Positions 40,868 through 60,793 of a stretch of DNA of 64,000 nt are shown in pieces (the first letter of the stretch is position 1; the number at the start of each line of letters is the position of its first letter). The stretch is from NCBI RefSeq assembly GCF_030297155.1, contig NZ_AP028067.1:744001-808000 (forward strand), written 5' to 3'. The notes below the pieces were generated by a model. That model searched no databases. It was not told the DNA's origin and worked only from the letters and a program-made list of their open reading frames with translations. The DNA is from Vibrio sp. FE10. GTDB lineage: Bacteria; Pseudomonadota; Gammaproteobacteria; Enterobacterales; Vibrionaceae. The translations under genes and the position numbers were made by a program.

Positions 40868-41872
40868 GTGAGAATTTGGCTTGTTGCATTAACTTCTTTG
40901 ATTTTTCTTGCTGGCTGTGAAAAGCCGATTGAGCAAGTGCATTTAAGTGGCCCAACGATGGGTACTAGCTACAATATTAAATACATCAATGGTGATGAGT
41001 TCCCTGAGTCTAAAGAGATTCACACCGAGATTGATCGCTTACTTGAAGAAGTAAATGATCAGATGTCGACTTACCGTGAAGACTCAGAGTTAAGCCGTTT
41101 TAATCAGCACAAGGGCGCAGACCCATTTGAAGTTTCTGAGCAAACTGCGATTGTAGTGAAAGAAGCTATTCGTTTGAACGGTCTTACTGAAGGAGCGTTG
41201 GATGTTACTGTTGGTCCTTTAGTGAACTTGTGGGGTTTTGGCCCAGAAGCACGTCCAGAAGTTGTTCCAACTGACGAAGAACTTGCTGCTCGTAAAGCGA
41301 AGGTGGGTATCCATCACCTAAGCATTGAAGGCAACAAGCTCACCAAGGATCTACCGAACTTGTATGTCGATCTTTCGACAATTGCAAAAGGTTGGGGTGT
41401 TGACGTTGTAGCTGACTATCTTGATTCAATTGGCATTCACAACTACATGGTTGAAATTGGCGGTGAAATTCGCTTGAAAGGTCTAAACCGTGACAATGTA
41501 GGTTGGCGCATAGCGATTGAGAAACCAAGTGTAGAAGAGCGTACTATTCAAGAGATCATCGAACCGGGTGATATGGCGATTGCAACCTCTGGTGACTATC
41601 GTAACTATTTCGAGCGTGATGGTGTTCGTTACTCACACATCATCAACCCAGAAACAGGTAAACCTCTTCATCACAAAGTGGTTTCTGTGACTGTTTTAAA
41701 CCCGTCTTCAATGACTGCAGACGGCTTATCTACTGGCCTTATGGTCTTAGGTGAAGTAAGAGGAATGGAAATCGCTAACCAGCATAACATCCCAGCGTTT
41801 ATGGTGGTTAAAACAGCAGATGGCTTTAAAGAAATTGCTTCAGAAGCATTTAAGCCATACTTAGGTAAATAA
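40868..41872 (+). CDS. apbE: ApbE, FAD:protein FMN transferase
   Basis: 334-residue lipoprotein (signal peptide ending LAGC) that moves FMN from FAD onto Thr of NqrB and NqrC. GPTMGTSYNIKYINGDE, VDLSTIAKGWGVDVVADYLD, VEIGGEIRLKGLN and SHIINPETGKPLHH are the FAD- and Mg-binding segments. The start is a GTG after AGGAG. It lies just behind nqrF, next to its substrates, and is followed 16 bases later by nqrM. Confidence 0.95.
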   Translation: MRIWLVALTSLIFLAGCEKPIEQVHLSGPTMGTSYNIKYINGDEFPESKEIHTEIDRLLEEVNDQMSTYREDSELSRFNQHKGADPFEVSEQTAIVVKEAIRLNGLTEGALDVTVGPLVNLWGFGPEARPEVVPTDEELAARKAKVGIHHLSIEGNKLTKDLPNLYVDLSTIAKGWGVDVVADYLDSIGIHNYMVEIGGEIRLKGLNRDNVGWRIAIEKPSVEERTIQEIIEPGDMAIATSGDYRNYFERDGVRYSHIINPETGKPLHHKVVSVTVLNPSSMTADGLSTGLMVLGEVRGMEIANQHNIPAFMVVKTADGFKEIASEAFKPYLGK

Positions 41873-41888: not shown

Positions 41889-42143
41889 ATGAATACATTT
41901 CTGATTACATTTGGTGTTTTTCTTGCCGTGATCACAGCAATGTCGATTGGCTATATTGTCCAAAAGAAAGTTGTGAAGGGTAGCTGTGGTGGTTTAGGCG
42001 CTGTCGGTATCGACAAAGTCTGTAATTGCCCAGAACCTTGTGATGCGCGTAAAAAGCGCGAAGCACGTGAAGCTTACCGAGTTGAAAAACTGGCTGAGCG
42101 TCAAGAAAAAGAAGCGGCTTGGAGCAAGGATCGTATCGCTTAA
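41889..42143 (+). CDS. nqrM: NqrM, Na+-NQR maturation protein
   Basis: 84-residue protein with one N-terminal membrane helix and four cysteines (SCGG, then VCNCPEPCDARKKREAREAY) followed by a charged tail. NqrM is needed for assembly of active Na+-NQR and is thought to bring iron to the NqrD/E cluster. It is in the apbE unit and ends in a terminator. Confidence 0.93.
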   Translation: MNTFLITFGVFLAVITAMSIGYIVQKKVVKGSCGGLGAVGIDKVCNCPEPCDARKKREAREAYRVEKLAERQEKEAAWSKDRIA

Positions 42144-42341: not shown

Positions 42342-43571
42342 CTATGAACTCTTATTTCGAGCGCATACAAGCTGGTTTCTACCTTGTTCTTTGGCCGTAT
42401 AAAGCAGTTCGTCGGCTGCTTTTATTTGTTCATCTAGCTTGCCGTTTAAATCCGTGACACCAATGCTGATGCTGACTTTAATGCTTTGGGATTCATGAAT
42501 CACTTCATGATCTTCTATTGCTACTCTCATTGATTCTAGGTTATCAACGAAGCTTTCAAACGACCCACATGACTGAATACAAAACTCTTCACCGCCAAAA
42601 CGAACGGCCACATCATCGTTGAAGTGATCCTTGATGATACTGCCCACAGCAACCAGTACCGCATCGCCACCATCATGGCCGAAGGTATCGTTCACTTTCT
42701 TGAAAAAGTCGATATCCATCATCGCGATATTACGTTCTTCACAGCCTTTGCACGATTGATTGAACAAGTAGCGACGGTTCCATAGCCCCGTGAGTGCATC
42801 CTCATTGGCATGACGAAACAGTTCATTGGTCGCTTCTTTCATATCGAGAAGTTGGTGAATACGACAGAAAAACTCTTCTTGGTTAAATGGCTTATAGAGG
42901 AAGTCATTGGCGCCCGCTTTAAGGAAGCGTGCGGTCATGGTGCGATCGTCACTGCCTGATAACCCAAGAATAGCGAGTTGGTTTCGATCGTGGTGTACTC
43001 GAATGTCACGAGTCATCGATATGCCATCTTTTTTAGGCATGTCATGATCGGTAACGACAAACGTGATATCAGGATCGTTGCGTAGAAGCTCTAGCGCTTG
43101 TTCGCCATCTTCCGCTTGAATCGTTTGAATGTATTGATGTTCGAGGAGCTGAACGACATATCGGCGAACCACCGCAGAATCATCAACGACTAACGCTTTA
43201 TGGTGTCGATTATTCGAGATTCGATTAACCAGAGGAAGTAAGTAACTGACCGATGACATACTGTCTTTGAGGATGTAATCAAGCACACCTTTGGCGAGAA
43301 CTTGCTCTCGAAGTGTGTTGTTAAACATGCCAGTGAGTACAATGATTTTTTGTTGGTAACCGAGTACCAAATCAATGATTTCACCATCTTGGCCATCGGG
43401 TAGGCAGTAATCTAATACAGCACACAAGAAATCCGTTTCTTGCTCTAAGATCGCTTTCGCTTCCTTAATAGACTCTGCGAGTGCGACTTCATAGCCACTG
43501 TTTTTTAATTGCTGGTATAGATAGTTTCGGAATGCTCGACTGTCTTCTACCACTAGTATTTTTTCACTCAA
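42342..43571 (-). CDS. REC-REC-GGDEF response regulator (diguanylate cyclase)
   Basis: 409 residues: receiver 1 (about 4-118) with the phosphorylation Asp in CAVLDYCLPDG, receiver 2 (about 125-240) with FVVTDHDMPKKDG, then a GGDEF domain (about 255-405) with the active-site motif RFGGEEF near residue 325. Both receivers keep the Asp and the switch lysine (YILKDS, FLYKPF). It should make cyclic di-GMP. No kinase is adjacent. It is divergent from the truncated dinB. Confidence 0.9.
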   Translation of the reverse strand: MSEKILVVEDSRAFRNYLYQQLKNSGYEVALAESIKEAKAILEQETDFLCAVLDYCLPDGQDGEIIDLVLGYQQKIIVLTGMFNNTLREQVLAKGVLDYILKDSMSSVSYLLPLVNRISNNRHHKALVVDDSAVVRRYVVQLLEHQYIQTIQAEDGEQALELLRNDPDITFVVTDHDMPKKDGISMTRDIRVHHDRNQLAILGLSGSDDRTMTARFLKAGANDFLYKPFNQEEFFCRIHQLLDMKEATNELFRHANEDALTGLWNRRYLFNQSCKGCEERNIAMMDIDFFKKVNDTFGHDGGDAVLVAVGSIIKDHFNDDVAVRFGGEEFCIQSCGSFESFVDNLESMRVAIEDHEVIHESQSIKVSISIGVTDLNGKLDEQIKAADELLYTAKEQGRNQLVCARNKSS

Positions 43572-43694
43572 AAGCTATCCCTACTTATAGACTAAATACT
43601 CCTTACAATACTATCAGAAGAGTGGACTGCTGTTGAAGTGAAACCTCTTGAGCTGGACACGAGATCATTTTAAATCGCGGGATAATTGATTATA

Positions 43695-43710
43695 CTGTTC
43701 ATAGATACAG
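43695..43710. promoter_or_regulatory. LexA (SOS) box of dinB
   Basis: CTGT-TCATAGAT-ACAG is a perfect CTGT-N8-ACAG site with TA and TT flanks, 24 bases before the dinB ATG. With dinB cut, the first complete gene downstream is gmtY at 43889. Confidence 0.85.
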
Positions 43711-43733
43711 TTGTAAGGTTGAGTTATTCCTAA

Positions 43734-43796
43734 ATGTGCAGTGCAGACCAAGATAAAATCAGAAAAATAATCCATGTCGATATGGATTGTTTTTAA
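43734..43796 (+). pseudogene. dinB: dinB (DNA polymerase IV), first 20 codons only
   Basis: ATG at 43734 gives MCSADQDKIRKIIHVDMDCF and then TAA. RKIIHVDMDCF is the invariant N-terminus of Pol IV, holding the first catalytic Asp, and normally continues FAAVEMRDNP or YAAVEMRDNP. Sequence homology ends at the TTT at 43791-43793, so the foreign element begins at about 43793. The SOS box in front agrees with dinB, as does its place behind nqr-apbE-nqrM. I do not find the rest of dinB anywhere in the window. Confidence 0.88.
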
Positions 43797-43888
43797 ACTA
43801 GCAGGTGTTAATTATTGGGGAAAGTTGTAATTGAATTAATGCCTACTACACTTCAACCAAAGGGTGGCAATTTTGGGGTTGAAAATGT

Positions 43889-45109
43889 ATGCAGCGTATT
43901 CATGATAAATCACATAATGGTCATTGGATTTACCTTTACGATAATGATGTTCCTATTCTTCTACCTTGTCTCTATTGTCGATACACTTATGTGACTGGTC
44001 TTTCGGTTGTTCATGAAAAAAAACGTATTGAAGGCAAAGGCAATTTCGAGTTCTTACTCAAAGAGGATGAGATTGGAGGTGATGCTCAATATGTACGTGG
44101 ACATCAACTTGGCCTGTTCTTAGAATGGATAGAAGATTATAACCACCCTTCCGTTACCCTTGCGTGGCATACCGCCCTTCCTGCCGAGTTCATTAATGAA
44201 TATATAAATGAATACCTCATTGTAGAAAAGCAAAAAAGCGAAGTCGTTGTGAACAAAGCCATTACTTCCCTTTGTAGCTATTACCATTGGTTGACTTACT
44301 TTTTCGATACAAACTTTAAAAAGATATTTATTTTCTCTGAATATAGAGCATTAGCTAGAGGAAATAATAAGTCTAATCTCATTGTCAAATACTTTCTTCC
44401 TGCGACAAGGGAGCTCCTTTATCGACATACAGACAGTTTGCTAGAGGAAATTGTTCTTCGAAATGGTGGGGAGTTAGGGTGCAGGACTTCTGAGAACCGA
44501 GGGTTTTATTTGGCTGATTTTAAAGCTGACGGCAAAATCCGTCTGGGTTTACAGAGCTTATTTAAGAAATTGAAAGAATCACCTGAAAAGGAAGAGTTTG
44601 AGTACCACCTCTCTTCTATGGATGTGAAATACGGCTCTGCGCGAACACTCTATATTCCTCGTACTCACCTAGAATTGATGGAGCGTTACTGCAATACGGA
44701 GCGCCCAGAGTCAGCGTCGAATCATTTGCTTGTTTCTAACTCTAGCAATTACACGAAAGGAGAAGAGGTTAGCAGAAGGTACGGAAGTGCTACTTTTTCT
44801 AAGACACTGAAGAAGCTGTTAAAGGTAATGAGTGAAAACCCAGAGGCTTATTCAGGTTATCAAATGTTAGATGAGGACAATGTTTACCATCATTTAAGGC
44901 ATTCGTTTGGAACAGATATTTTCCACTATTTATGTGTTGCTGCTAAAAAAAATTACGAGTCAATCACAACAGAATCAAGAGTTTATATTGAAACCGCTCG
45001 GCGTCTTGGCCATAAGGTAGATGGTAAGCACGCTAACCAAACAACAAAAATCTACATTCATGCTTGTGGAGAGCGAGAAGCTCTATTAATAGAGGTGGTT
45101 AATGGATAA
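43889..45109 (+). CDS. gmtY: Tyrosine recombinase, GmtY-like (gamma-mobile-trio)
   Basis: 406-residue site-specific recombinase. The C-terminal catalytic domain has H334-x-x-R337 in YHHLRHSFGTDIF, His375 in RRLGHKVDGK and the nucleophile Tyr389 in TTKIYIHA. The N-terminal half resembles nothing I know. It heads a block of four same-strand genes that matches GmtY, an unnamed gene, GmtZ and GmtX of gamma-mobile-trio elements. The stop overlaps the next start by 8 bases. It is the first gene behind the dinB SOS promoter. Codon use is more AT-rich than in the core genes. The family name is from memory; the recombinase call is firm. Confidence 0.75.
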   Translation: MQRIHDKSHNGHWIYLYDNDVPILLPCLYCRYTYVTGLSVVHEKKRIEGKGNFEFLLKEDEIGGDAQYVRGHQLGLFLEWIEDYNHPSVTLAWHTALPAEFINEYINEYLIVEKQKSEVVVNKAITSLCSYYHWLTYFFDTNFKKIFIFSEYRALARGNNKSNLIVKYFLPATRELLYRHTDSLLEEIVLRNGGELGCRTSENRGFYLADFKADGKIRLGLQSLFKKLKESPEKEEFEYHLSSMDVKYGSARTLYIPRTHLELMERYCNTERPESASNHLLVSNSSNYTKGEEVSRRYGSATFSKTLKKLLKVMSENPEAYSGYQMLDEDNVYHHLRHSFGTDIFHYLCVAAKKNYESITTESRVYIETARRLGHKVDGKHANQTTKIYIHACGEREALLIEVVNG

Positions 45110-47348
45110 AGCGCTTTCAAGTTCTGAGATAGAAGAGCGATTAAAGCATGACTTTAAAAAAGAACAATCAGTTACTGCATTTGAATTGCCTTTTACAGCT
45201 ACTTCAATAATAGTGCCTAAAACGGAACAATATGCTTCGCACATACTATTATTGGATGATATTAACACGCCTGATAAGGTGATTATATATAAAGCAATGA
45301 TTGCTGTTTATAATTATGTGTTCTTTGATAAAAGTGCAGCTGTAACAGCTAAAGATGTTTTCTCATCAGCAGCAAAACCCTTCATTTCATGGTTAAATTC
45401 TTACAAAATTAATAATCGTTACGAAATTTTAAGGCGTTATGAATCTGATCGTATGGATGAGCTTGATAATCATGGTGGTTATAGCCCACTAAGAGCCCTC
45501 AATTCTATTATTGGGTATGCAATTGAATCGGAAGCTCTTAGTAAAGAGTTGAGTAGCGAAGATTATACATTTCTTATTGAACTAAGAAAGACGAAACCTG
45601 CACCTAACTTAAACAAATCACAAAAATCCATAGCGAGTTATTTCGGTGCGTTAGACTGGTTGAGAAGAGAAGATATTGGCATTGGGGGTGAGTTATATTC
45701 GGCTTTAGCTTCACCGAAGTTAGCCATCAATTCATTAAGTTTGACAGCTGCAACTTTGATTATTGAACTTAAAGATTATAAAGATGAACTTCAAACATTG
45801 ATCAAGAGTACCGAGCCTCAGTTAGCACCTTTGTTAGATTTGAATTTTAAAACTCTTTCACGGAGTAAAAAGCAATGTCTAATTGGGGAGATGGTTTATT
45901 TAATTGTGTGTGCTTATCATCGACTAGATAAACCATCATATACTCTTCAATCCGCTCTAGGAGTTTTGCTATTGTCGAATGCATCTAGTCAAAGTAGCTA
46001 CTTCAATCTATTAAATGTATTAAAGAGTCAGACTGAATGCGATAGTTTATTTTTAAATAAAAAGTTCAATACGGATAAAGTTAATGCTGAATATTGTAGA
46101 GATAATTTCACCGCTATGAGAAATGGAACTCTTTTCTCAATTGATGTAGTTAAAAACTTATTGTGTAATGAAGTATCAAAAGCTGTCACCAAAATAGAAG
46201 AAGTTATGTTTGCGTGGATAATGGCAGGATTAATGGTACAGCCGACAGATATACCTAAAATTACTCATTCGGACTTCAGGTTAATGAAAGTTGGTGGTCG
46301 AGTGACACATATCGAATGTGAATACTTCAAAGGGAGGTCAAAGCTTTTTCACGCTACACGCTCCCTTTCAACTCGAACGCGAGAAGGAAAGGCATTATTG
46401 GTTGTAATGGAGCAACAAGAAGAAAGCCTACCTTTTTATACTAAGGTGGTTCTTTTTATAAGTAATGGTTTTAACTCACTTTTAGGGACTTTAAATTTAC
46501 TGCTTCAATCAAGTAGTATTTCTATGGTGTTAAAAACCGTACACTCAAAGCAAAATATACCTTGTTTAATGCCCTTAACACTTTGCTCTCTGATATCGAA
46601 TGGGATTCATACTATTAATTGTGTTGCAAACGCTAATAAAGTGGCATTAGAAGACAGACAAAAATTGGTAAGGCAATCACAATCTCCTTGTCAGTCAAAT
46701 TTGTTTGGTTTTCAATTAATAAAAAATAGCGCAGTTCATGCTTTTAGCGATCCTTATACTTTAGACTACCTCATTAACCGAAACTCTCATTCAAACCAGA
46801 CAGAGAAGGTTAACTACCTGACTGAAGATAATGAAGCGTGGATTAATAACTCAGGAAGAATTACTCGTGAGGTAATGTTTGATTTAATTCAAAATGTCTT
46901 TAATTTGGGCTTTGAGCGTGATGATGCAGAACAATTAAAACGATTTAACAGCGAATTTATGGCGGTGACAGAAAGTATCTCTTATAGGCATGAAGAAATG
47001 AACTCAAGACTTCGTATGATAACTGGACAGGGAAAAGGAAAAGTGAATGAAGTAGGAGTTCTCTCATTGAATGATAAAAATGAAAGCGAACCTTTATCTC
47101 CTATTTATGTAGTTGATAGCTCAATCACAGTTCTAAAGATGTATAACTACCTCCACGAATTTAAAAAAAATCACAAAAAGATACTTGCGAATAATCCAGA
47201 CTTTTTGTTTAAGACTGTTATACCAACCGTTGAATGGATCGAGGGTACGCTCAAAAAGATGAGTAAACCATCACTACGAAAGGGTAGAGACCAATTTGAT
47301 TTAATGATTAAGAATGGCGTAGTGATTAGCGTCTTTAATTCTATGTAG
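45102..47348 (+). CDS. Second gene of the GMT block, degenerate recombinase-like protein
   Basis: 748 residues, AT-rich. I recognise no named family. Around residues 365-440, WIMAGLMVQPTDIPKITHSD followed by ECEYFKGRSKLFHATRSLST has the shape of the recombinase box I and beta-hairpin region, but the box I Arg of the G-x-R-x-x-E pattern is replaced, and I see no H-x-x-R or Tyr motif later. It may be a recombinase fold that has lost catalysis and serves a structural role in the synaptic complex (inference). It overlaps gmtY by 8 bases and is followed 12 bases later by gmtZ. Confidence 0.6.
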   Translation: MDKALSSSEIEERLKHDFKKEQSVTAFELPFTATSIIVPKTEQYASHILLLDDINTPDKVIIYKAMIAVYNYVFFDKSAAVTAKDVFSSAAKPFISWLNSYKINNRYEILRRYESDRMDELDNHGGYSPLRALNSIIGYAIESEALSKELSSEDYTFLIELRKTKPAPNLNKSQKSIASYFGALDWLRREDIGIGGELYSALASPKLAINSLSLTAATLIIELKDYKDELQTLIKSTEPQLAPLLDLNFKTLSRSKKQCLIGEMVYLIVCAYHRLDKPSYTLQSALGVLLLSNASSQSSYFNLLNVLKSQTECDSLFLNKKFNTDKVNAEYCRDNFTAMRNGTLFSIDVVKNLLCNEVSKAVTKIEEVMFAWIMAGLMVQPTDIPKITHSDFRLMKVGGRVTHIECEYFKGRSKLFHATRSLSTRTREGKALLVVMEQQEESLPFYTKVVLFISNGFNSLLGTLNLLLQSSSISMVLKTVHSKQNIPCLMPLTLCSLISNGIHTINCVANANKVALEDRQKLVRQSQSPCQSNLFGFQLIKNSAVHAFSDPYTLDYLINRNSHSNQTEKVNYLTEDNEAWINNSGRITREVMFDLIQNVFNLGFERDDAEQLKRFNSEFMAVTESISYRHEEMNSRLRMITGQGKGKVNEVGVLSLNDKNESEPLSPIYVVDSSITVLKMYNYLHEFKKNHKKILANNPDFLFKTVIPTVEWIEGTLKKMSKPSLRKGRDQFDLMIKNGVVISVFNSM

Positions 47349-47359
47349 TTGGAGGTTAT

Positions 47360-50167
47360 ATGACATTAAGTGTACTAAATTATCAAATTGATAACTTTTG
47401 GCATGAGAAAAATCTAAAATTAAAGGCGAATCCGTTCTTTATAAATGAAAGAGGTGATTTTTACTCTGATGTTTGGAGTTTTAGTGCAAAACAATATGGC
47501 AATATAACAACGATTGATTTTTCATGGTTTGATTCACCTGAATATAGCTTAAGTTCAATTGCAACTTATATCAAAGATAATTGTGAGTATTTGTTAAGCA
47601 GTAAAGCATATGCGAAGCTGGCCTGTCTGGAAATGTTGACGCCATCTAATATTGCGTATGTCCAACCGACCTACCAAATGATGCTTCATTTATTTGCCTT
47701 TTTTAAAGAGAATAATGTTTCTATCCTAAATATATCACTAATGGAACCTTTCTGGACATCATTCATGGGACGAACGATAAGCCCACATGGTTTAGTGAAT
47801 CGTGTATCAATACCTTCATATCGTGCCTCTATCAGACGAGTGTCTTTTCATAAAATAAGAAATTCACTAAAAGCATTAGGTGTGGTGGGGGTGATTGAAC
47901 CTAAACTCACATTTAAAATAGTTGAAAAAAGTTTAAATGATGTATGCCAAACGCAGTATAGCACTACGCTAGCTGAGTATAAAAAAGGAGGTAGCTTTAA
48001 CTTTCTTGGTTTAGAGCTTGGACAATATTATGTCGATTACTTGAATGGTGTTTATCAGCAGAATTTTCTTTATGTCTTAGTGTGTAAAAAAACCTTTGAA
48101 CATTGCATTAATAAGTACTCTATTGGAAGTTTTGAATCAAAAACGAATAATCGTCTATTTAATGTAATGCTTTCTGCTGTGTTTGGTGGCGAGGATTATG
48201 CGCCTAATTCTCATACTAAAGGTATTAATCATATAGCACTTAAAGTTAATGCTGAAAATATCCTTTTTAATGAATACCTGAAGCATTTTGAAGCAGTGAT
48301 GTCGTTAAAAGATAGTAATATTGAAGCTTTGGTTTATGAGCTAGGTTTATCTACTCGAAGCGATGCAATGGAATTAATTCGAGTCCTGATGTTACAAAAG
48401 CATTTAGGGTTGGATGGACATAAGACACCAGATGAGGTATGGCAAGGTTATTTATTGTCACTGGATCAGACTTTCTTAGGAAGTGAGTCCCTGAATGAAA
48501 CTTTGGTGGAAGATCTGTATAAAAAAATGCAATTAATCATCGACAAGAAGAAATTAGAACAAACTCAGTTTCTAGTAGATATTCAAAAGTGGGCACTAGA
48601 GCAAATCTCCTATTCGGAGAATAAAACGTATGAAAACTTTAAAACGACACTCAACATTACACTATATGCAATGACAAGTTTAGTGGTTGCGTGGACTGGT
48701 TATCGAAGATCAGAATTTGGATTCCCACTGAGTGCTATACGTCCAGAACCTAATCTAGATATTTTAGATAATGCTCATGTGCCATTTTGTTTTAAATTAA
48801 AATGGCTTGTTCCTAAAACGAGTGGGTCAACTAAAATTAATCGAGAAATCACATCGCAGTGCTATCAAATTGCGGCACAATTGAATGATGTGTTTGGGAG
48901 TTCAAGCAATGAACCTTGCTTGTATCGGTTGGAAAATAATAATTTCAAAAAAGAAAAGTTAAACAATTCTGATGTTTGTATTAATAATAGAGTTATCGCT
49001 AATTGGAAAGGGTTTGTAGATTCTTATTCACCTTTTAATGACGTAGTTTTGTTAGACAGATTAATTCAAAAAGAGATTTGTCTGTTAACGAACACAGAAC
49101 AAGAAAAGCTTAGGAAATTATCTTTGATGTATGAGGTCGGTAGCGCGCGTTATGAGAATTTATTAACTTGTGCCAAAGAGGTGAAAAAAGATTGGCTTCG
49201 TCTATCAAATTCCTCATTCAATGGAGCTAGAGCGCAAGAGCGTTTTAAATCTTCTTTAATTAAATATATGAAAGATAATGAAGTCGATAACATTAAACAT
49301 CAGCAAATAATAGATACTTATCTTTCTGATGAAACTAAAAATCTATTGACGAGTAATTCGATAGATTTAAATGATAAAAAAACAGTTATGGATATAACCT
49401 CTGAAATATTAGAGGGGGTTCGCTATCCATCTGCTCATGCTTTTCGTCATATTTGGGCTGAAGCGGTATTAACGCGCTATCAGGGGGATGTAGGGGCAGT
49501 AATTCGCCATCAATTTGCTCATTTAGACAATTCATTCTTTATGGCGTACTTGAGAGACAAAGACGCACGGGGGCTGATGGCCTCGGCAAAACAACGCTAT
49601 TTAAACACCATTGTTGAAACGTTGATTATCGAATCAAACCACATTGGTGAGCGGTATATCGGGGGGGTAGCCCAGTTTGTCAAAAAGGCTGTCCACTTAA
49701 CACAGGTTAAAGATGAGAGCGAGCTCACTGAGAGTGAACGGCGTGCATTAAGCGAGGCGATTGCTGGGAGGATCATCGATATTCAACCGAGTCGATTTGC
49801 TACGTGTATTCCTCGTGATGGTGGCGAGAGCCGTGCCAAGTGCGCCCAAATGGGAAGCTTAAATCCACAGGATGCAAAACTCGAATTTTGTCTAAATTGT
49901 ATGAATGCTTATATTTCGGAGGGGAATATCCGGGGAATTTGGCAAACAGTTCAACCAATGGTTAAAGAGGCAATGCAACCAAATGGGATTGGCTTTTTAC
50001 TGGAATCTCACCTTCCTGCCTTAACATCAAGTTTAAGGCGAATCAAAGAGCTTCGAAACAGTAGGAATGAGGAAAGCGTAGACAAAATATTGTCAGCGAT
50101 AGAGGATGCGGTCGATTCAATTAAGCGCAAAATGGCAGTGGAGGCAAAACAGTATGGCTACGAATGA
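47360..50167 (+). CDS. gmtZ: Large tyrosine recombinase, GmtZ-like (gamma-mobile-trio)
   Basis: 935-residue protein with a full recombinase residue set: Arg449 in WTGYRRSEFGFPLSAI, H693-x-x-R696 in HAFRHIW, His721 in HQFAHLDNS and Tyr730 in FMAYLRDK. A cysteine cluster follows near residues 815-855 (CIPRDGG, KCAQM, FCLNCMNAY) and could bind zinc. A strong GGAGG precedes the ATG. From about 49480 the coding sequence turns less AT-rich, as if the gene were mosaic. The last 14 bases overlap gmtX. Name by recall of the GMT family, catalytic class from the motifs. Confidence 0.75.
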   Translation: MTLSVLNYQIDNFWHEKNLKLKANPFFINERGDFYSDVWSFSAKQYGNITTIDFSWFDSPEYSLSSIATYIKDNCEYLLSSKAYAKLACLEMLTPSNIAYVQPTYQMMLHLFAFFKENNVSILNISLMEPFWTSFMGRTISPHGLVNRVSIPSYRASIRRVSFHKIRNSLKALGVVGVIEPKLTFKIVEKSLNDVCQTQYSTTLAEYKKGGSFNFLGLELGQYYVDYLNGVYQQNFLYVLVCKKTFEHCINKYSIGSFESKTNNRLFNVMLSAVFGGEDYAPNSHTKGINHIALKVNAENILFNEYLKHFEAVMSLKDSNIEALVYELGLSTRSDAMELIRVLMLQKHLGLDGHKTPDEVWQGYLLSLDQTFLGSESLNETLVEDLYKKMQLIIDKKKLEQTQFLVDIQKWALEQISYSENKTYENFKTTLNITLYAMTSLVVAWTGYRRSEFGFPLSAIRPEPNLDILDNAHVPFCFKLKWLVPKTSGSTKINREITSQCYQIAAQLNDVFGSSSNEPCLYRLENNNFKKEKLNNSDVCINNRVIANWKGFVDSYSPFNDVVLLDRLIQKEICLLTNTEQEKLRKLSLMYEVGSARYENLLTCAKEVKKDWLRLSNSSFNGARAQERFKSSLIKYMKDNEVDNIKHQQIIDTYLSDETKNLLTSNSIDLNDKKTVMDITSEILEGVRYPSAHAFRHIWAEAVLTRYQGDVGAVIRHQFAHLDNSFFMAYLRDKDARGLMASAKQRYLNTIVETLIIESNHIGERYIGGVAQFVKKAVHLTQVKDESELTESERRALSEAIAGRIIDIQPSRFATCIPRDGGESRAKCAQMGSLNPQDAKLEFCLNCMNAYISEGNIRGIWQTVQPMVKEAMQPNGIGFLLESHLPALTSSLRRIKELRNSRNEESVDKILSAIEDAVDSIKRKMAVEAKQYGYE

Positions 50168-50696
50168 TCTGGATGAATTGTTCACCGATGACTTCCTTGA
50201 TTCGCTGGATGATGATTCAACAGTTGAGCAGAGCGTCTCGGCCTCCTGGGTGGTTGATGACAAAGACCACACCACTTACAAAGCTTACCATGCGATTCTT
50301 GAGTTGAAGGCACAGGCAGAGAAAGCAATTGAGAACTTTGGTGAAGTCGAAACAACAAAAACGCCGAAATTCTACCAGTTGAAAAAGTCACATGTGGCTA
50401 AAGCAGTGGGCGTATCAGCACAGAGTATTTTTAACACATCCTCTTTCAGCCCTCATATTCGTACTTTCTTTGATGATATTAACGATGAGCTTCTTAAGCG
50501 GCATCAAACCGAACAGAAGAAACAAGTCAAACGGAAAAATACGGGACTTAGAAGGAAAAAGAAGGAGGCGGTTGTGGTGAGCCATCAAAGTCTAGAGAAG
50601 AAATACAATGCTCTCAAGGCTCTCACGACCAAAGAGGTGCTAAACCTTTCAATTGAGAAGATGCCAATCGATCTTAAGGCTAAGTTAGGCTTGTAA
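50154..50696 (+). CDS. gmtX: Small accessory protein, GmtX-like (gamma-mobile-trio)
   Basis: 180 residues: acidic N-terminus (MATNDLDELFTDDFLDSLDD), a middle section with a helix-turn-helix-like phrase VAKAVGVSAQSIFNTSSFSP, and a strongly basic stretch (KRKNTGLRRKKKEA) leading to a C-terminal helix. It likely binds DNA and assists the recombinases, by analogy with TnpC of Tn554, which follows two tyrosine recombinases. I place the start at ATG 50154, overlapping gmtZ, because MATNDLDEL follows a GGAGG site (50139-50143). Confidence 0.7.
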   Translation: MATNDLDELFTDDFLDSLDDDSTVEQSVSASWVVDDKDHTTYKAYHAILELKAQAEKAIENFGEVETTKTPKFYQLKKSHVAKAVGVSAQSIFNTSSFSPHIRTFFDDINDELLKRHQTEQKKQVKRKNTGLRRKKKEAVVVSHQSLEKKYNALKALTTKEVLNLSIEKMPIDLKAKLGL

Positions 50697-50798: not shown

Positions 50799-53339
50799 CT
50801 ACTCATACAAATACTTCTGAAACCCAATGAACGTATCTCGTATAGCCATTGGCGAACCGAATTGTTCAGCAGCATCGCTTATCGTGCCGTACTTAAGCTC
50901 AACTAAACTGCGCATTTTCTTGGCTGCCAGCTCTTGAACGCCATCTTCAATGTACTTGTCTAAAATGAATTCGATAAACTCTATTTGGTTTGGGGTGAAT
51001 TCGCTCGATATGCCTGGCTTTGCTGTAGCGACGCGTTCTTTTCGAGTATGGGTTTCTCTGGCGTAAGCGACAAAAGACAACAGGTCATAAACGTCGCTAT
51101 CTTTAGCATCGATAATTTCTTTCATGCTATCGAGTTTTTCATCGTCGTAACCCGCTTCTTGCAGATCCGCGAGTAGCTTTTCGCGGGTGCTTGGGTTGCT
51201 CCAGATCTCGCGTAGCTCATCTTCATTGCCAAAGAATCGTGGTAAATAACCAAATAGCTGCTCAACAAACTGTTTAGCGGTGAGCATGTCGCCGTCAGCA
51301 CCCATGAACAATACGCTTTTCATGTGTTGTATTTGGCGTACTTTGCCGTCGGTTAGAGTAATGAATATCTTCTCTGGTTTACCTGGCCCTTCATCATCGC
51401 CCCCCGTATCGCAGCTACAAGGGGTGTCTCCGCAGTTATTACAAGGTTCGACAAGACATTGGCAAGGAGAGTGGTGGCACTCGCTACAAGGCACGTCTGG
51501 GGCTTCAGTGTCACAATTGCACGGATTGAAGCCACACTCTTCACATAGGCAACTACATGGCTTGTTATTACAGGTATCACAAGGCTCTTCGCCGGGCTTT
51601 TCCTCTGGCGGTAATGGCTCGCCATCCCACCCAGGGTCAGAGAAATTGTGATGGGCTTTTACAAAGTCATATACCGTGAAAAATGATTTGCCATCGTACA
51701 TACGAGTGCCACGGCCAATGATCTGCTTAAACTCAATCATGTTGTTACATGGGCGCATCAGTACTATGTTACGTACGTTACGGGCATCAACACCGGTCGA
51801 TAGCTTACGAGAGGTCGTTAAGATCGTCGGAATTGTTTTTTCGTTGTCACAGAATGTGCGTAGATCATTCTCACCCGCAGCGCCATCATTAGCAGTTATG
51901 CGAACACAGTAACTTGGGTTTGTTGTCCAACCTTTCTTAACTGCGTATTGGTTGATGAAGTCTCTAACCATACCTGCATGCTCTTGAGTAGCACAGAATA
52001 CTATGGTCTTCTCTCTTGGATTGATATGGTCCATCCAATATTGCACACGCTTTTGCTCTCTCTGAGGCATTGTGATAATTCGATTGAAATCACTCTCTTT
52101 GTACACTTTCCCTGGCTCTGGTTCACCTTTAAAGGTCACTGCATCACCTGGGGTATAGATGTACTCATCCATAGTGCCGACAATTGGATATACTTTAAAA
52201 GGTGTTAAGAAACCGTCGTTGATGCCTTGCTTTAATGTGTAGCTATAAACAGGATCACCGAAGTATTTGTAACTATCAGCGTTGTCAGTACGTTTAGGTG
52301 TTGCAGTCAAGCCCAGTTGTACGGCAGGTGCGAAATAGTTGAGGATGTCACGCCATGAGCTTTCATCATTTGCGCCGCCACGGTGACACTCATCAATAAT
52401 GATGAAGTCGAAGAAGTCTTCAGGATATTGTCTGAAGTTACAGTAGTCTGTGTCGGTGATGACAGCTTGTTCAAATTCTTCGTCTTCAACCTCTTCTAGA
52501 TCCGCACTGTTTTGGTTTGCACTATCAGTCATTAAGGTTTGGAAAATGGCCATGAAGATACTGGCATTTTTCGGCACACCTTTGGCTTTTTTGATTTCGC
52601 TAGGGGTAATACGAACCACCGCATCTTCACCAAAGGCACCAAAGTCATTAAAGGCTTGCTTAGTAAGTACATTACGGTCGGCTAGGAATAATATACGTGG
52701 GCGCTTTTTAGCGTTACTTGGATTCTTAGCCGCTTGTAAGCTCCAGCGGCTGTTGAATAGCTTCCAAGACAGCTGAATGGCAATGCAGGTTTTACCCGTG
52801 CCTTTTGCTATTGCCTCCAACGCTTGGTTAATCGCATTCTCTTGGTAATAGCGAGGTTGCCAATCGCCTTTACATTCAAACGGGATTTTTGCAAAGTTCT
52901 CACGCCAAGTACTCGTGAATTTGGGTTCGCTCTTTCCGTCTTCACCATTAAAGGCAATCGCCCACATCTCTTCAGGGCTTAAATAGCGGTTAACGAGCTG
53001 TTCTTCACCCGTTAGCATGTCTATTTGGTAAATGTCATGACCATTGGTGGCATAAGCGAAACGGCACTGCAAGCGTTGAGCGTAGTCTTTGGCTTGGCGA
53101 ACACCTTCGGTGTAACTTAGGCTTTCACGTTTGGCTTCAACAGCTGCGAGTTTACGGCCTTGAAACTCTAAAACGTAATCCGCACTGAGTTTAGAACTAC
53201 GTTTACCACCGCCTAAAATACGCCCAGCAGTAATGATCACCTCTCGGCGAATAATGCTGTGGTCAGCTTTACCCCAACCATCTATCGTTAATTTAGGTGA
53301 GATTAGTTCAGCACGGGTTTCAGATTCATTTCTACTCAT
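50799..53339 (-). CDS. hsdR: HsdR, type I restriction endonuclease R subunit with Cys-repeat insert
   Basis: 846-residue motor and nuclease subunit. The N-terminal PD-(D/E)XK nuclease shows SADYVLEFQ and AAVEAKRE; Walker A is KGTGKTCIA near residue 183, DEAH-type box IIIDECHRG near 315, and later helicase motifs include IIGRGTRMYDG near 555. At about residues 587-643 lie four copies of C-x2-C-x3-P-C-x-C (16 cysteines), an insert I do not know from the standard EcoEI-type R subunit. It is the last gene of the xre-hsdM-hsdS-hsdR operon, convergent with the GMT block. Without HsdM it should be inactive. Confidence 0.88.
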   Translation of the reverse strand: MSRNESETRAELISPKLTIDGWGKADHSIIRREVIITAGRILGGGKRSSKLSADYVLEFQGRKLAAVEAKRESLSYTEGVRQAKDYAQRLQCRFAYATNGHDIYQIDMLTGEEQLVNRYLSPEEMWAIAFNGEDGKSEPKFTSTWRENFAKIPFECKGDWQPRYYQENAINQALEAIAKGTGKTCIAIQLSWKLFNSRWSLQAAKNPSNAKKRPRILFLADRNVLTKQAFNDFGAFGEDAVVRITPSEIKKAKGVPKNASIFMAIFQTLMTDSANQNSADLEEVEDEEFEQAVITDTDYCNFRQYPEDFFDFIIIDECHRGGANDESSWRDILNYFAPAVQLGLTATPKRTDNADSYKYFGDPVYSYTLKQGINDGFLTPFKVYPIVGTMDEYIYTPGDAVTFKGEPEPGKVYKESDFNRIITMPQREQKRVQYWMDHINPREKTIVFCATQEHAGMVRDFINQYAVKKGWTTNPSYCVRITANDGAAGENDLRTFCDNEKTIPTILTTSRKLSTGVDARNVRNIVLMRPCNNMIEFKQIIGRGTRMYDGKSFFTVYDFVKAHHNFSDPGWDGEPLPPEEKPGEEPCDTCNNKPCSCLCEECGFNPCNCDTEAPDVPCSECHHSPCQCLVEPCNNCGDTPCSCDTGGDDEGPGKPEKIFITLTDGKVRQIQHMKSVLFMGADGDMLTAKQFVEQLFGYLPRFFGNEDELREIWSNPSTREKLLADLQEAGYDDEKLDSMKEIIDAKDSDVYDLLSFVAYARETHTRKERVATAKPGISSEFTPNQIEFIEFILDKYIEDGVQELAAKKMRSLVELKYGTISDAAEQFGSPMAIRDTFIGFQKYLYE

Positions 53340-53374
53340 GACACTTACCTTGTGTTTACTGTTTAGACTGATGC

Positions 53375-54523
53375 TTAGTCGTGAGTTAATTCACCGCTGA
53401 AAGCTTTTTGTAGTATTGATTTTTTAAGTTCGTCTATTGAATTCAGCTTTTCATTGTAAATATCAACAACTTTCTCTATCTCTATTGATAACTGGTCGAT
53501 AAGTTTAGTAATTTCTATTTGCTTGTTTTTTGAAGGTACTCTCACCCCAAACTTACTCAAACTAGAGTTACTTAAATTTGGCATTACAGCGCCCCCAGCT
53601 ATTTTTTCCAAACTGGCTACACAAGAAGCAGACCTAAGAAATCTTACGAGAAATCCTCCATCACAACGATCTGATGATTTGATGATAAAGCTGCCAGTTC
53701 CGCATAAATACCCATCTTCATCTTGGGTTATTAATGCGCAGCGCCCCATTTCCCCCCTACGACCAATAACGATATCACCAGCTTTCATTTTATAAGCTGA
53801 AAGTCGCAATGCTGTCTCTTCTGAAATCGTCTTTCTTGTATCTGGTACTATTTTTTGTCCGACAATGTGCGCAGGATTTACAAGTGGTATACCGTCTTCA
53901 ATGTAATCACTTTTATGGAGAAGTGAGCCGAAAGGCCCAGTAGCTATACCACCCGTGATTTCACCCAAAGTAGTATCAATCCAACCTTCACCTTTTTGGC
54001 TAAACACTTGTTGCAGGTAACTATCAAACAACTCACATGCGTTTTTTAGGTTTTGTTCGGTTTTAGCGCGTGTTTGCTCTAAGTCGGCAAACACAGTGTC
54101 GAGTAATGTCACAATGCGTTTTTGTTCTTCTACATCGAGAGGGAATTCTAATTCAAGATCCTTAAGCGATGAGTTTGAAATTACAGGCTGTGCAGCCTGC
54201 CGAGCAAGACTTCGTAAATTGTTAAAATTCAACAAGTAAGTTAAAAATTTATTATCAAAATCATACTTTTCATCTATGATCTTAAAGGCATTGTCTGTTA
54301 ACCAAATATCTTCAGTAATATGCCTCGCATTGCCACATAAGGCACCTACACGACCAACAATTACATTATCGCCAGAAAGGTTGAAAGTATTATGAGTACC
54401 TGCTTGAGAGTTACCACCAAATACAGGGTAATCACCAGCTATCATATTTTTTGCAGTAAGACCGTCACCACTTTTCAGTTTAAAACAGTCTTTAAGCTTC
54501 TTGCGTACCCAACCTTGATTCAT
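53375..54523 (-). CDS. hsdS: HsdS, type I restriction specificity subunit
   Basis: 382 residues with two target-recognition domains (about 1-140 and 185-330), each followed by a helical conserved region (VEEQKRIVTLLDTVFADLEQ and NKQIEITKLIDQLSIEIEKV). Each half sets one part of the bipartite DNA target, which cannot be read from sequence. The ATG overlaps the hsdM stop by 4 bases (ATGA). It appears intact. Confidence 0.9.
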   Translation of the reverse strand: MNQGWVRKKLKDCFKLKSGDGLTAKNMIAGDYPVFGGNSQAGTHNTFNLSGDNVIVGRVGALCGNARHITEDIWLTDNAFKIIDEKYDFDNKFLTYLLNFNNLRSLARQAAQPVISNSSLKDLELEFPLDVEEQKRIVTLLDTVFADLEQTRAKTEQNLKNACELFDSYLQQVFSQKGEGWIDTTLGEITGGIATGPFGSLLHKSDYIEDGIPLVNPAHIVGQKIVPDTRKTISEETALRLSAYKMKAGDIVIGRRGEMGRCALITQDEDGYLCGTGSFIIKSSDRCDGGFLVRFLRSASCVASLEKIAGGAVMPNLSNSSLSKFGVRVPSKNKQIEITKLIDQLSIEIEKVVDIYNEKLNSIDELKKSILQKAFSGELTHD

Positions 54524-55058
54524 AACAACCCCTGAATCTTAGCCAAAATCGCTTCAGATTCTTTATCTAATGCAATGATGTCATCAATAATCACGTTAGG
54601 CTCACGCAGCGGTACTGCTTCCTCGGTATTTGGGTTTTTAATCGATAGATCATAAGTGCTTTCATCAACATCGCTAATGGCAATTGACCATGACTTATCA
54701 GAGTCACCTTTTTTCAAATCGCTCATGGCTGCTTTTTGAAGCACTACAAACTCTTCTAAATCTTTATCGTTTAGTGGGTTTGTTTTGCCCATGTTACGAC
54801 CGACATTTAGCTCGTAGAACCATGTATTAAGCGTTGGTTCGCCTTTGGTAAAGAACAGCACAACGGTTTTTACTCCCGCACCTAAGAACGTACCACCAGG
54901 GCAATCAAGCACAGTATGTAAATTACAGTTTTCAAGTAGTTCCTTACGCAGTTTAATCGCGGCATTGTCGGTATTACTTAGGAAGGTATTTTTAATAACA
55001 ACCGCTGCGCGGCCGCCAGGTGTAGTTGACCCGATCTAGTGGACACCTTCAATTGTAA

Positions 55059-55412
55059 TTGGAGGTGTTTATGCCAGCTTATAAATCAGGTAAAAAAACT
55101 CAACAATATCTTACGGAATTTAAGGTAACTGCTGTCCGACTTTCGCTTCGAGAAGGAGCTACAGTTAAAAGCGTGGCGCTATCATTAGATATCCACCCTT
55201 ATATGCTTTCTAAATGGCGAAAGGACTATAGAGAAGGGGTTATTATGGAAGATAAACGTAAGAAAAGGACTCAGATCCCGAGCCAGAAAACTGAGTCTAG
55301 TCGGATTGCAGAGCTTGAACGTCAGAACGAACAACTTAAGCTCGAGAATGACTTGCTAAAAAAGTGGCAACGATTCGTTGCCCAAGAAAATCGACAAAAT
55401 TCCGATTCATAG
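55059..55412 (+). CDS. IS3-family transposase OrfA
   Basis: 117-residue DNA-binding part: a helix-turn-helix (YLTEFKVTAVRLSLREGATV, SVALSLDIHPYMLSKWRKDY) and a leucine-zipper-like helix (AELERQNEQLKLENDLLKKW). An A6G slippery run (55358-55364) sits where the OrfB frame (-1) begins, so an OrfAB fusion is expected by programmed frameshifting. Confidence 0.9.
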   Translation: MEVFMPAYKSGKKTQQYLTEFKVTAVRLSLREGATVKSVALSLDIHPYMLSKWRKDYREGVIMEDKRKKRTQIPSQKTESSRIAELERQNEQLKLENDLLKKWQRFVAQENRQNSDS

Positions 55413-56251
55413 CCCATTACAAAACGCGTTATTCCATTGTCTTGATGTGTCGTTTTCTATCTGTTTCTAAGTCGGGTTACTACGCATGGCTTGATAGAGA
55501 GCCAAGCCGCTACGATCAAGAAGAGCAGGCTTTGAAGAAGCGCATAATTAAAGTGTTTACCCAGAGTCGAGAGACTTACGGTAGTCCACGAGTTCATGCA
55601 GAGCTGAGGCGCCAAGGAGTTTTGGTTAGCCGCAAGCGTGTAGCTCGGATCATGAGAGAGCAAGGGCTAAGAGCGCGAAGTTATCGCATTTACATGAAAA
55701 TGGCCAAGCTACATCGGTTCTATCAATCGATTAAGAATATTAAAAAAGACACACCAAAACCAACGGCAGTTAATCAACAATGGTCTGGAGATCTAACGTA
55801 TATAAAGCAAGGTAAACGTTGGATGTATCTAGCGGTCGTTATCGATCTTTACTCGCGTAAAATCGTCGGTTGGTCGCTTGGTAGTAAGAAGAGTACACAA
55901 CTAACGATGAGTTCGTTGAGAATGGCCATTAGAAATCGAAAGCCACAAGAGCGCTTATTGTTTCATACCGACAGAGGCTCTGAATATCGAGCACATGAAG
56001 TTCAAGCTTTATTATCAAAAAATGGAATTGTCCCAAGTATGAATCGTCCAGGTCATTGCACTGATAATGCGGAGGTGGAGTCGTTCTTCCATACGCTCAA
56101 AGGCGACATAATTAGGAAAAATAGTTTTAAAAGTGAGAAGCAGCTTAGAGATAAACTTGCCGGTTATATCCAGCATTTTTATAACCGTTATAGACTGCAC
56201 TCAAGTCTTGGATATCGACCCCCGCATGAATATGAAGTAGCGACGGGTTAA
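55364..56251 (+). CDS. IS3-family transposase OrfB (DDE integrase)
   Basis: 295-residue catalytic part. HTH_21-like ETYGSPRVHAELRRQGVLVS, then the rve core with the DDE triad: Asp in WSGDLTYIK, Asp in FHTDRGSEYRA and Glu in NAEVESFFHTLK. All are intact, so the element may be active. It is read with OrfA by -1 frameshift; the GTG at 55364 is a nominal start. Confidence 0.9.
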   Translation: MATIRCPRKSTKFRFIAHYKTRYSIVLMCRFLSVSKSGYYAWLDREPSRYDQEEQALKKRIIKVFTQSRETYGSPRVHAELRRQGVLVSRKRVARIMREQGLRARSYRIYMKMAKLHRFYQSIKNIKKDTPKPTAVNQQWSGDLTYIKQGKRWMYLAVVIDLYSRKIVGWSLGSKKSTQLTMSSLRMAIRNRKPQERLLFHTDRGSEYRAHEVQALLSKNGIVPSMNRPGHCTDNAEVESFFHTLKGDIIRKNSFKSEKQLRDKLAGYIQHFYNRYRLHSSLGYRPPHEYEVATG

Positions 56252-57389
56252 AGATAATAGGGTGTCCATTTTATCGGGTGAAGATCACAGGTTTAAGCAT
56301 TTTGATAAAGTGCTGCAAGAACAAAAATGCCGTTTCACTCGTTTGAATCGGGAAGTTCTCTTGAACCTCTTTACGCTCTTTACCACCAAATGGAGGGTTA
56401 GCCAATATTACATCGTGTTGGTTGCTTGGCTGAATGTCTTGCAAGTTTTCAGATAATGTATTGGTGTGCAATACATTAGGGGCTTCAATGCCGTGCAAAA
56501 TCATGTTCATGATGGCGATAACGTAGGCTAAAGACTTCTTCTCTTTGGCATAGAAGGTGCCATCTTGCAGTGTTTTCAAATCACTCGTACTAAGTTTGGT
56601 TTTGTCTCGACCACCTTGACGTAAGTAATCGTAGGCTTCACATAAGAACCCTGCTGAACCAGCGGCACCGTCGTAAATGGTATCCCCGATTTTTGGCTGT
56701 ACGACATCGATCATCGCGCGGATTAATGGGCGTGGCGTATAGTACTCGCCACCGTTTCGGCCAGCGTTACCCATATTCTTGATTTTAACTTCGTATAAGT
56801 GGCTCAACTCGTGCTTTTCTTTTTGCGATCGGAAACGAAGAGTATCTATTTTTTCCAGTGCATCACGCAGTGAGTAACCGCTTTGAATCTTGTTTTTTAT
56901 CTCACCAAAAACCTCACCAATTTTATATTCAATGGTGTTGGCATTATTCGCTCGTTGTTTAAAGCCTTTCAGGTAAGGAAACAGTTCTCCATCAACAAAC
57001 TCCATTAGGTCATCGCCAGTTAATGCGTTGTTGTGGTCGAAGTTACCTTCTGCATCTTTTGGTGCAGCCCAGTTACTCCAGCGATATTGCTCTTCGATGA
57101 TGTACTCGTAGGTTTCCATCATCATTTCAGCTTCCTGTGACTTGGTGAACTCAAGATCATCAAGGTACTTTAGAAACAGCATCCATGATGATTGCTCTGT
57201 GTAGTCGAGTTCAGACGAACAACCTGCGTCTTTATGAAAGATATCGTCGACGTTTTTAAATACTTGTTCAAACATGCTTTGAATGTCCTGTCACGGCTGT
57301 ACTATTGGGAGGATGGTTACTGCTAACTTCACCGAAAAATCCCATAGAAAATTGAGTTCTGAATTTAGGGTGGAATATACCCATTTTCT

Positions 57390-59596: not shown

Positions 59597-59606
59597 GAGA
59601 AACAAT

Positions 59607-60329
59607 ATGGACGCAATAATCCAACAGTTAAAATCACTACGCCTAAGTCATGCTTCTGATGCACTGGAACAGCAAAGGATACACCCCGCGACCTATGCTG
59701 AACTTGGCTTTGAAGAAAGGTTAGGACTCATCCTTGATCATGAGATAGTGAACCGAGATCAAACCAAAATCCAACGACTTAAACGGCAAGCCAAGCTGCG
59801 CCTAAGCGCTAGCGGTAATCAACTGGACTACCGCCCAGAACGAGGCTTAAAAAGAGCAATGATGGGAGAGTTATTATCAGGCACTTATTTACAAAAGCGA
59901 CAGAATGTCCTGATTACAGGTGCAACAGGTGCAGGTAAAACCTATGTTGCTTGTGCGCTCGCCGAGCAGGCGTGTGAGCAACACTGCCCAAGTCGTTATT
60001 ATCGCCTAAATCGTTTACTTGATGACCTGAGTAGTAGCCGCCTTGATGGCAGCTATCAAAAGCTGCTACTGAGCTTGTCTAAGAAAAAACTGTTGGTTAT
60101 CGATGACTGGGGAATGGAAAAACTCAGCCAAGAGCATGCAAGTAATCTTCTCGAAGTGCTAGAAGATAGATACCAAGAGTGCAGTACAATCATTATCAGC
60201 CAACTACCTGTAAAAGAATGGCACGAGATGATCGACAACTCGACGATCGCTGATGCGATCTTAGATAGGTTGGTTCATCAAAGTCATAGAATCGAGTTAC
60301 GAGGGGAATCAATGAGAAAACTGGCTTAA
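59607..60329 (+). CDS. istB: IstB, IS21-family ATPase helper
   Basis: 240-residue AAA+ ATPase that works with IstA. Walker A ITGATGAGKTYVACALAEQA near residue 105 and Walker B LLVIDDWGMEKLS near 165. The ATG at 59607 follows GGAGA and lies 10 bases behind istA; the frame is open further upstream, but that would overlap istA. Confidence 0.92.
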   Translation: MDAIIQQLKSLRLSHASDALEQQRIHPATYAELGFEERLGLILDHEIVNRDQTKIQRLKRQAKLRLSASGNQLDYRPERGLKRAMMGELLSGTYLQKRQNVLITGATGAGKTYVACALAEQACEQHCPSRYYRLNRLLDDLSSSRLDGSYQKLLLSLSKKKLLVIDDWGMEKLSQEHASNLLEVLEDRYQECSTIIISQLPVKEWHEMIDNSTIADAILDRLVHQSHRIELRGESMRKLA

Positions 60330-60427: not shown

Positions 60428-60793
60428 GCTGAAGCGATTGTTTCACCGCTAAGTAATATGGAAGCGATGGCGAAGCACCTTGAATTGATCTCAATAGCAA
60501 CACCGATTGATAAACACTCTGTGATTATTATGGATCAAGCGAGCTGGCATCAAACACACTTAGCCAATCACTTTAAGAACATCACGATAATCCATATCCC
60601 GCCCAATTCACCAAAATTAAACCCGATAGAGCAAGTTTGGCAATGGCTTCGTCAGTACAAGTTAGCGAATCGGTGTTTTGAAAACTATAACGATATAGTG
60701 AACTCGGTGTGCGAAGCTTGGAACAGTTTTTGTGAAGATAAACGCAGAGTCCAATCTCTCTGCTTTAGATACTGGACTAGGTTGATAAGTTAA
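60428..60793 (+). pseudogene. IS630-family transposase, C-terminal fragment
   Basis: From the IS21 end the frame reads AEAIVSPLSNMEAMAKHLEL, SVIIMDQASWHQTHLANHF and IHIPPNSPKLNPIEQVWQWL, the DDE tail of an IS630-type transposase (second Asp in MDQASWH, Glu in NPIEQVW). The N-terminal two thirds are absent and are not found on the left side of IS21 either. So IS21 joined this site by insertion plus deletion or by recombination. Confidence 0.82.

Follow-up and report, generated by a model that had tools for sequence, protein, structure and literature searches.

A mobile element that interrupts dinB at its active-site codons in marine Gammaproteobacteria carries a divergent dinB of its own

SE-6283 (Tn6283) is a strand-biased circularizing integrative element (SE) that resides in bcp and carries a bcp homologue, described as 54.8% identical in E. 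coli (PMC5991714, PMC9345347). As described for SEs, the 6 bp to the left of the donor copy travel along and end up at the right terminus where the element newly inserts (PMC10214605; PMC9345347). For a GInt island, RT-PCR is reported to have demonstrated that a host promoter outside the island drives transcription into its first recombinase gene, besides a promoter that the island itself has (PMC5385486). Replacement of the disrupted target is already known, as with SE-6283 and bcp or with the recA mobile element (RME) and recA, and the new part of what we describe here is a variant that targets dinB. No insertion into dinB or trmL that is accompanied by a carried copy was found in the main texts of the literature searched, a search that did not cover the supplementary list of 37 published SEs and their targets.

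The window that we analyzed is a stretch of 64,000 nucleotides from Vibrio sp. FE10 (NZ_AP028067.1, positions 744,001 to 808,000), and coordinates refer to it unless a contig (C) or locus (L) is named. An earlier note made from the letters alone had proposed that a mobile element cut dinB after codon 20, at a position behind nqr-apbE-nqrM, and the reading frame, the neighboring genes, and intact homologues in related Vibrio genomes all bear this out. Codons 1-20 occupy positions 43734-43793 of the forward strand (MCSADQDKIRKIIHVDMDCF) and are followed by a TAA stop (43794-43796) formed at the element junction, which gives a native 5' piece of 43734-43796. Upstream lie apbE (40868-41872) and nqrM (41889-42143); between nqrM and the cut dinB, a response-regulator/GGDEF gene is encoded on the minus strand (42342-43571). 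Positions 43650-43792 are similar to relatives G017 (88%), G006 (85%), and partly G009 (73%), and in all three genomes the dinB frame continues uninterrupted at the same place to give an intact DinB. The native dinB promoter before the element contains a LexA (SOS) box at 43693-43712 (+; TACTGTTCATAGATACAGTT) that faces intA, ends 21 bp ahead of the dinB ATG, has a complete CTG-N10-CAG core, and agrees with 16 of the 20 letters of what we take to be the SOS-box consensus.

Comparison of attL and attR with intact sites places the native 6 bp TTTTTA of the left junction at 43790-43795 (+) and the first base of the element at 43796, so that the earlier note had found the right location for the left edge but set it, at about 43793, 3 bp too far to the left. 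Right of the element, native dinB resumes with the last base of codon 21 and then codon 22 onward, behind six foreign base pairs (TACATA) and outside the window (remainder at L004:5948-6962). This remainder is an open frame without the first 21 codons and without a usable start; its first listed start is at MRDNP, and a product beginning there would therefore be devoid of D8 and of the steric-gate residue.

The element is 25,146 bp long, occupies the window from 43796 to 64000 (+), and continues to its right end at C1:812941 (L004:5941), with a GC content of 40.3% compared to 44.2% for window positions 1-43789. Its left terminal motif AACTAGCAGGTG (43796-43807, +) and its right end CACCCACAAGTT (L004:5930-5941) form an imperfect inverted repeat. 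Four core genes follow the left terminus on the forward strand. The first encodes an intA-like tyrosine recombinase of 406 aa (43889-45109) in which R199, H334/H335, R337, H375, and Y389 are conserved in 7 aligned relatives (R337 is leucine in a copy at a flagellin gene of genome G003); it matched Phage_integrase weakly (E 0.053), and a profile search against solved structures gave no match at E 0.01. It is followed by a tfp-like protein of 748 aa (45102-47348), in which no R-H-R-Y set was seen on inspection by eye, an intB-like large tyrosine recombinase of 935 aa (47360-50167) with R449, H693, R696, H721, and Y730 invariant in 3 sequences, and a srap-like small protein (50106-50696) of 196 aa as listed, the start of which possibly lies further in. 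The cargo at 50799-57275 comprises minus-strand type I restriction-modification genes, namely hsdR (50799-53339), hsdS (53375-54523), and hsdM in two pieces (54520-54912 and 56271-57275), with a plus-strand IS3-type transposase gene (55364-56251) between the hsdM pieces that probably disables the element's type I modification gene. Further along are IS21-type istA/istB (58064-59596 and 59568-60329, +) and a DDE_3 transposase fragment (60458-60793, +).

This anatomy resembles that of an SE: The gene order intA-tfp-intB-srap is found as an ordinary tyrosine recombinase, a protein with the tyrosine recombinase fold but without the catalytic set, a large tyrosine recombinase, and a small protein (406/748/935/196 aa compared to 408/581/720/135 in SE-6945), and the ends consist of imperfect terminal inverted repeats with a 6-bp footprint beside the right terminus. 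Homology of the core proteins to those of known SEs was not found beyond IntA in the comparison with SE-6945, where hhalign gave E 2.8e-5 (probability 74%) for IntA, 0.34 for Tfp, 0.19 for IntB, and 0.0063 (probability 6%) for Srap, and blastp matched only IntA (E 0.013); the plasmid hits for IntA at E<=1 included no match to pSEA1. Assignment to the SEs by sequence was dropped for this reason, and with IntA alone resembling its SE-6945 counterpart, and weakly so, we call the element SE-like in anatomy without filing it as an SE.

The earlier note had also expected a cell without Pol IV unless another copy existed, and this loss is not supported, as the inserting element itself carries a complete, divergent dinB. 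Searching the whole genome for the IMS polymerase family yielded 3 matches, namely this complete DinB, the native remainder behind the element, and a UmuC-like protein elsewhere. The carried gene (349 aa; C1:811731-812780, L004:4731-5780, outside the window) stops 161 bp short of the element's right terminus, and its product is a full-length family match to the Pol IV model (487 bits at a cut-off of 256) that is 57-58% identical to the native gene. It retains D8, Y13, D103, E104, and K157 (E. coli numbering, with the roles that we presume for these residues) as well as a clamp-like tail, DQLQLPL, and an SOS-like CTG-N10-CAG box (15/20 letters) lies upstream. With a complete dinB on the element, the genome is not without a dinB gene, and loss of Pol IV as a full account is therefore rejected. 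We would expect the carried dinB to be active as Pol IV and to stand in for the native gene. A plain knock-out, in which the cell has no Pol IV because the carried gene is not made or inactive, fits the native dinB, which is certainly broken, as well as 2 genomes discussed below (G003 and G045) that seem to live without complete DinB; set against the complete carried DinB with its catalytic residues, its SOS-like box, and the low dN/dS values reported below, it appears very improbable.

Seventeen genomes, from Vibrio, Pseudoalteromonas, Thalassotalea, Psychrosphaera, Colwellia, Paraglaciecola, and one further genus, show the same cut in dinB, and 16 of them have a complete carried DinB together with a native remainder; in the 17th, the metagenome bin of Candidatus Colwellia aromaticivorans, neither was seen. 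This count is made up of 15 scanned sites plus G353 and G387 and leaves out G003, G113, and G153, where there is no left dinB cut or the left end was not seen (G307, by coordinates the same record as Thalassotalea, was counted once). IntA matches occurred in 12 of 148 Vibrio genomes, and in 7 of these the element interrupts dinB at this very position (the window genome, G018, G011, G127, G066, G005, and G144), while G003 has it at a flagellin gene and the other 4 have a trmL-type match only. When the same 148 genomes were searched with the native remainder as query, two DinB matches each were found, among matches listed down to 383 bits, in 8 genomes, which are the 7 carriers and G113, where only the right end of the element is present. 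A scan of named species, which partly overlaps with the 7 Vibrio carriers, found 12 loci, and 11 of these have dinB codons 1-20 or a similar stretch ahead of them: V. tasmaniensis, Vibrio sp. ES.051, V. rotiferianus, V. inusitatus, V. ezurae, Pseudoalteromonas sp. P1-25, Thalassotalea loyana, Psychrosphaera sp. F3M07, Colwellia sp. 75C3, Candidatus Colwellia aromaticivorans, and Paraglaciecola arctica. At the twelfth, in Colwellia sp. 1_MG-2023 (G153), intA lies directly behind a dinB-like copy, perhaps as part of an array of elements. Among 394 genomes of the order, 9 had matches and G353 and G387 were new dinB sites; the matches in G261, G378, and G452 had no dinB start in their flanks, and these genomes have one DinB each.

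Two side observations belong to this survey. Colwellia sp. 1_MG-2023 has three dinB copies around one element end (L091, L107, L113), as would result from tandem insertion of two elements in or beside dinB, and G275 has a 34-residue intA fragment near an intact dinB (L146) that is perhaps the trace of a lost element.

The carried copies differ from native genes precisely in the stretch that is hit. Native genes read DMDC-F-F/Y-AA or nearly so at the target, and carried copies read DLDSYYVS, DLDSYYAS, DLDCYYAA, DMDAFYVS, or DMDAFFVS (DLDCYFAA in G353); given this change, the carried gene is probably not itself a target. The catalytic residues are kept in the 17 carried rows of our first alignment wherever the region is present, with G003 broken there. 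For the Vibrio carried copies, 13 of 36 pairs permitted a dN/dS calculation, the other pairs being saturated at synonymous sites, and the resulting values of 0.046-0.156 demonstrate purifying selection at the level of sequence. SOS boxes are less uniform: Among eight carried copies scanned, two are without the full CTG-N10-CAG core, and the box of the G003 copy has 13 of 20 letters.

In a first tree, the carried copies form two clades with support of 100/99 each, one of Vibrio type with 10 rows and one of Alteromonadales type with 7, and within neither do they group with the native genes of their respective hosts. A second tree, which added 12 hand-picked Vibrio genomes to those already analyzed and did not include G013, places the native genes of Pseudoalteromonas and G387 next to the Alteromonadales type but outside it. 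The carried DinB of the window is 97-98% identical to those of G011 and G018 and 75% to that of V. tasmaniensis, and its IntA is closest to V. tasmaniensis (81%), so that the modules at the two ends are not linked to each other. Between G018 and G011, dS is 2.58 in the native remainders compared to 0.022 in the carried genes, from which it follows that at least the right end moved between species. A second dinB could in principle be the product of a tandem duplication that the host gene underwent when the element inserted or was aberrantly excised, as the adjacency of the two genes at the right end of the Vibrio insertions might suggest, but copies that move between species and fall into two well-supported clades apart from the host's native gene leave hardly any room for this, and as far as these genomes go, the trees rule it out.

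Carried-type dinB also occurs without the element. It is the sole dinB found in G024, G126, G085, G111, and G064 (second tree) as well as in G013, G068, and G132 (by identity), and the gene is therefore not element-specific. In G024, it lies between nqrM and recQ without element or remainder, and the flanking genes of this genome are close to those of the window genome (NqrF 99% and RecQ 94% identical). Elements may have seeded these carried-type sole alleles, or they may have taken their dinB from such hosts.

The right-end footprints bear on where the elements came from. With the register set from the dinB codons, 15 sites have AACT-type (once TACT) ends followed by 6 foreign bp, and these comprise 14 different 6-mers: TACATA, TCTAGT, CTTCAA, GAGTCA, GCACTT, TGTGGA, ATCTAG, TTGCGA (again in G353), AGAATT, CACAGG, GCATAG, TATAGT, GTAATC (G113), and TGAGTT (G153). 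None of the 15 equals a native dinB 6-mer of the left junctions (TTTTTA, TTTCTA, CTTTTA, CTTTTT, TTATTA, TTTCTT). Colwellia 75C3, Paraglaciecola, and G387 are not among the 15 sites, as no alignment of their terminal motifs with the AACT type was possible; read in the same way, these three have TAAATA, ATCTTA, and ATCTTA, again no dinB 6-mers. Since G018 and G011 share an identical right terminus and have different 6-mers, the six letters are not part of the element, and since the footprints are unlike dinB, the SE rule implies that the elements came from non-dinB sites. We infer that they reach dinB from elsewhere.

Genome G003 likely illustrates the reverse route. Its element sits in a flagellin gene (L041, L042) with the footprint TTTCTA, which is a dinB 6-mer (register set by hand), and in its dinB (L043) codon 19 is followed by 14 bp from the right terminus of that element and then by a deletion to about codon 131, as if dinB had been the former residence of the flagellin-site element. 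The carried dinB of this genome is frameshifted and the native dinB internally deleted, and no complete DinB was seen. G045 (L169) has a dinB in which one T is missing exactly at the target core, without a carried copy or another DinB match; this may be a scar from long ago, a frameshift that arose by chance, or a sequencing error, and a sequencing error may equally account for the break in G003. On the Shewanella xiamenensis plasmid pXY8M38-1 (L081, L139), there is an SE-like element with the same four core genes and hsd genes, with umuDC downstream; it is a possible vehicle, and because its ends and target could not be defined, we do not take it as vehicle evidence.

A second element in the window genome, inserted in trmL after codon 16 (C1, about 3523.9-3536 kb, L083; outside the window), is built from a homologous core (blastp against the dinB element: IntA 2e-17, Tfp 8e-39, IntB 3e-62, Srap 1e-7). 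It holds a complete TrmL (154 aa, minus strand) beside the native remainder, and this pair is present in all 5 genomes checked (the window genome, G007, G072, G134, and G137). The trmL element matters for the question of whether the carried dinB might be cargo with a job of its own, such as damage-induced mutagenesis useful to the element, with the match between target and cargo being incidental. Such a role would suit the distance between carried copies and native gene noted above for the window, the elements of Pseudoalteromonas, Thalassotalea, and Psychrosphaera, in which dinB lies inside the element and in two of three in opposite orientation, and the umuDC genes behind the plasmid-borne element of Shewanella. 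We nonetheless regard it as unlikely because dinB is present in 16 of 17 elements at dinB and trmL in 5 of 5 members of the homologous family that hits trmL.

In our best explanation, to which we assign a probability of about 0.8, a 25.1-kb SE-like tyrosine-recombinase element targets the DMDC-F/Y-AAVE active-site codons of dinB, and a carried, divergent dinB with a changed stretch takes over the Pol IV role. The cut with its ends, the carried gene, the altered motif, the 17 genomes in which the cut recurs, the purifying selection on carried copies, and their movement between species carry this reading as far as sequence comparison reaches; counted against it are G003 and G045 with no complete DinB, the weak or incomplete SOS boxes in 3 of 8 carried copies, and the Vibrio genomes that have carried-type dinB as their sole dinB without an element. 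Mechanistically, IntA and IntB together with Tfp and Srap would insert the circle into the active-site codons of dinB, the carried dinB would supply Pol IV, and its altered core motif would let it escape insertion. The native LexA-controlled dinB promoter, reading in the same direction, might moreover add SOS-driven transcription of the recombinase operon. This last step, the least supported of them, is suggested by the shared direction, by the absence of any terminator pattern between the native promoter and intA, and by the host SOS box, which all 15 sites covered by the scan (without G353 and G387) retain upstream of the cut and ahead of the recombinase operon; mobility of the element may thus be coupled to the SOS response.

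A single interrupted gene is ordinary, and what is notable is that the same codon has been hit many times, across several genera of marine Gammaproteobacteria, each time as far as seen with a substitute gene. In this way, the element would have a lasting target in the codons for the active site of a conserved repair gene, for which it brings a substitute. More tentatively, and with considerable doubt, dinB could be the place on the chromosome where a widespread marine family of elements chiefly lands and acts as a one-way gene-replacement system, with members that arrive from non-dinB sites, swap in a target-less Pol IV, and place their recombinase operon behind the LexA-controlled dinB promoter of the host, and with target-less alleles that spread over time and become sole copies, as in G024. 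If this were true, DNA damage would both induce the replacement polymerase and wake the element. Two questions become testable, one being whether DNA damage sets these elements in motion via a host promoter captured in this way and the other whether the version of an error-prone polymerase found in a species is determined by a mobile element.

Several described systems share parts of this picture. The tmexCD-toprJ units with two int genes in umuC likewise have a Y-family polymerase gene as insertion hot spot, but the gene is umuC instead of dinB, and their published description mentions no carried umuC (PMC8547460). GInt islands resemble the dinB element in a four-gene recombination operon at one end and in targets at the 5' ends of genes, whereas their ginA and ginB are described as having the integrase residues and their third gene, ginC, as being without the first arginine, and no carried target copy is part of the description; in the dinB element, it is the second gene that is without the catalytic set, and the third keeps R449 (PMC5385486). 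Membership among the GInt islands by gene order was set aside on the published description of their genes, the ginC trait being absent. Tn552-II of Staphylococcus aureus is described as a tnpABC element that carries a target homologue and brings donor-site bases to its new right end, and it differs as a Firmicute element with a 7-bp footprint whose carried gene still has an att-like motif (PMC12486829). RME of Vibrio cholerae likewise hits an SOS-regulated repair gene and has a complete divergent copy with a LexA box at one end, but recA is cut mid-gene (494 bp in), and the element is reported to have one phage integrase plus XerS and 9-bp inverted repeats (PMC4405046). SE-6283 shares the two tyrosine recombinases with two more core genes at the left end, the imperfect inverted repeats, the 6-bp footprint, and site-specific insertion in a gene as described for it (PMC5991714, PMC9345347); unlike SE-6283, the element studied here targets dinB instead of bcp, has an active-site stretch as its target motif, and has a LexA-controlled target promoter before intA. 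Taken together, dinB, trmL, bcp (SE-6283, PMC5991714), and recA (RME, PMC4405046) as described form a consistent habit in which the element carries what it breaks, and a match between target gene and carried gene suggests itself as a rule by which the targets of uncharacterized elements could be predicted.
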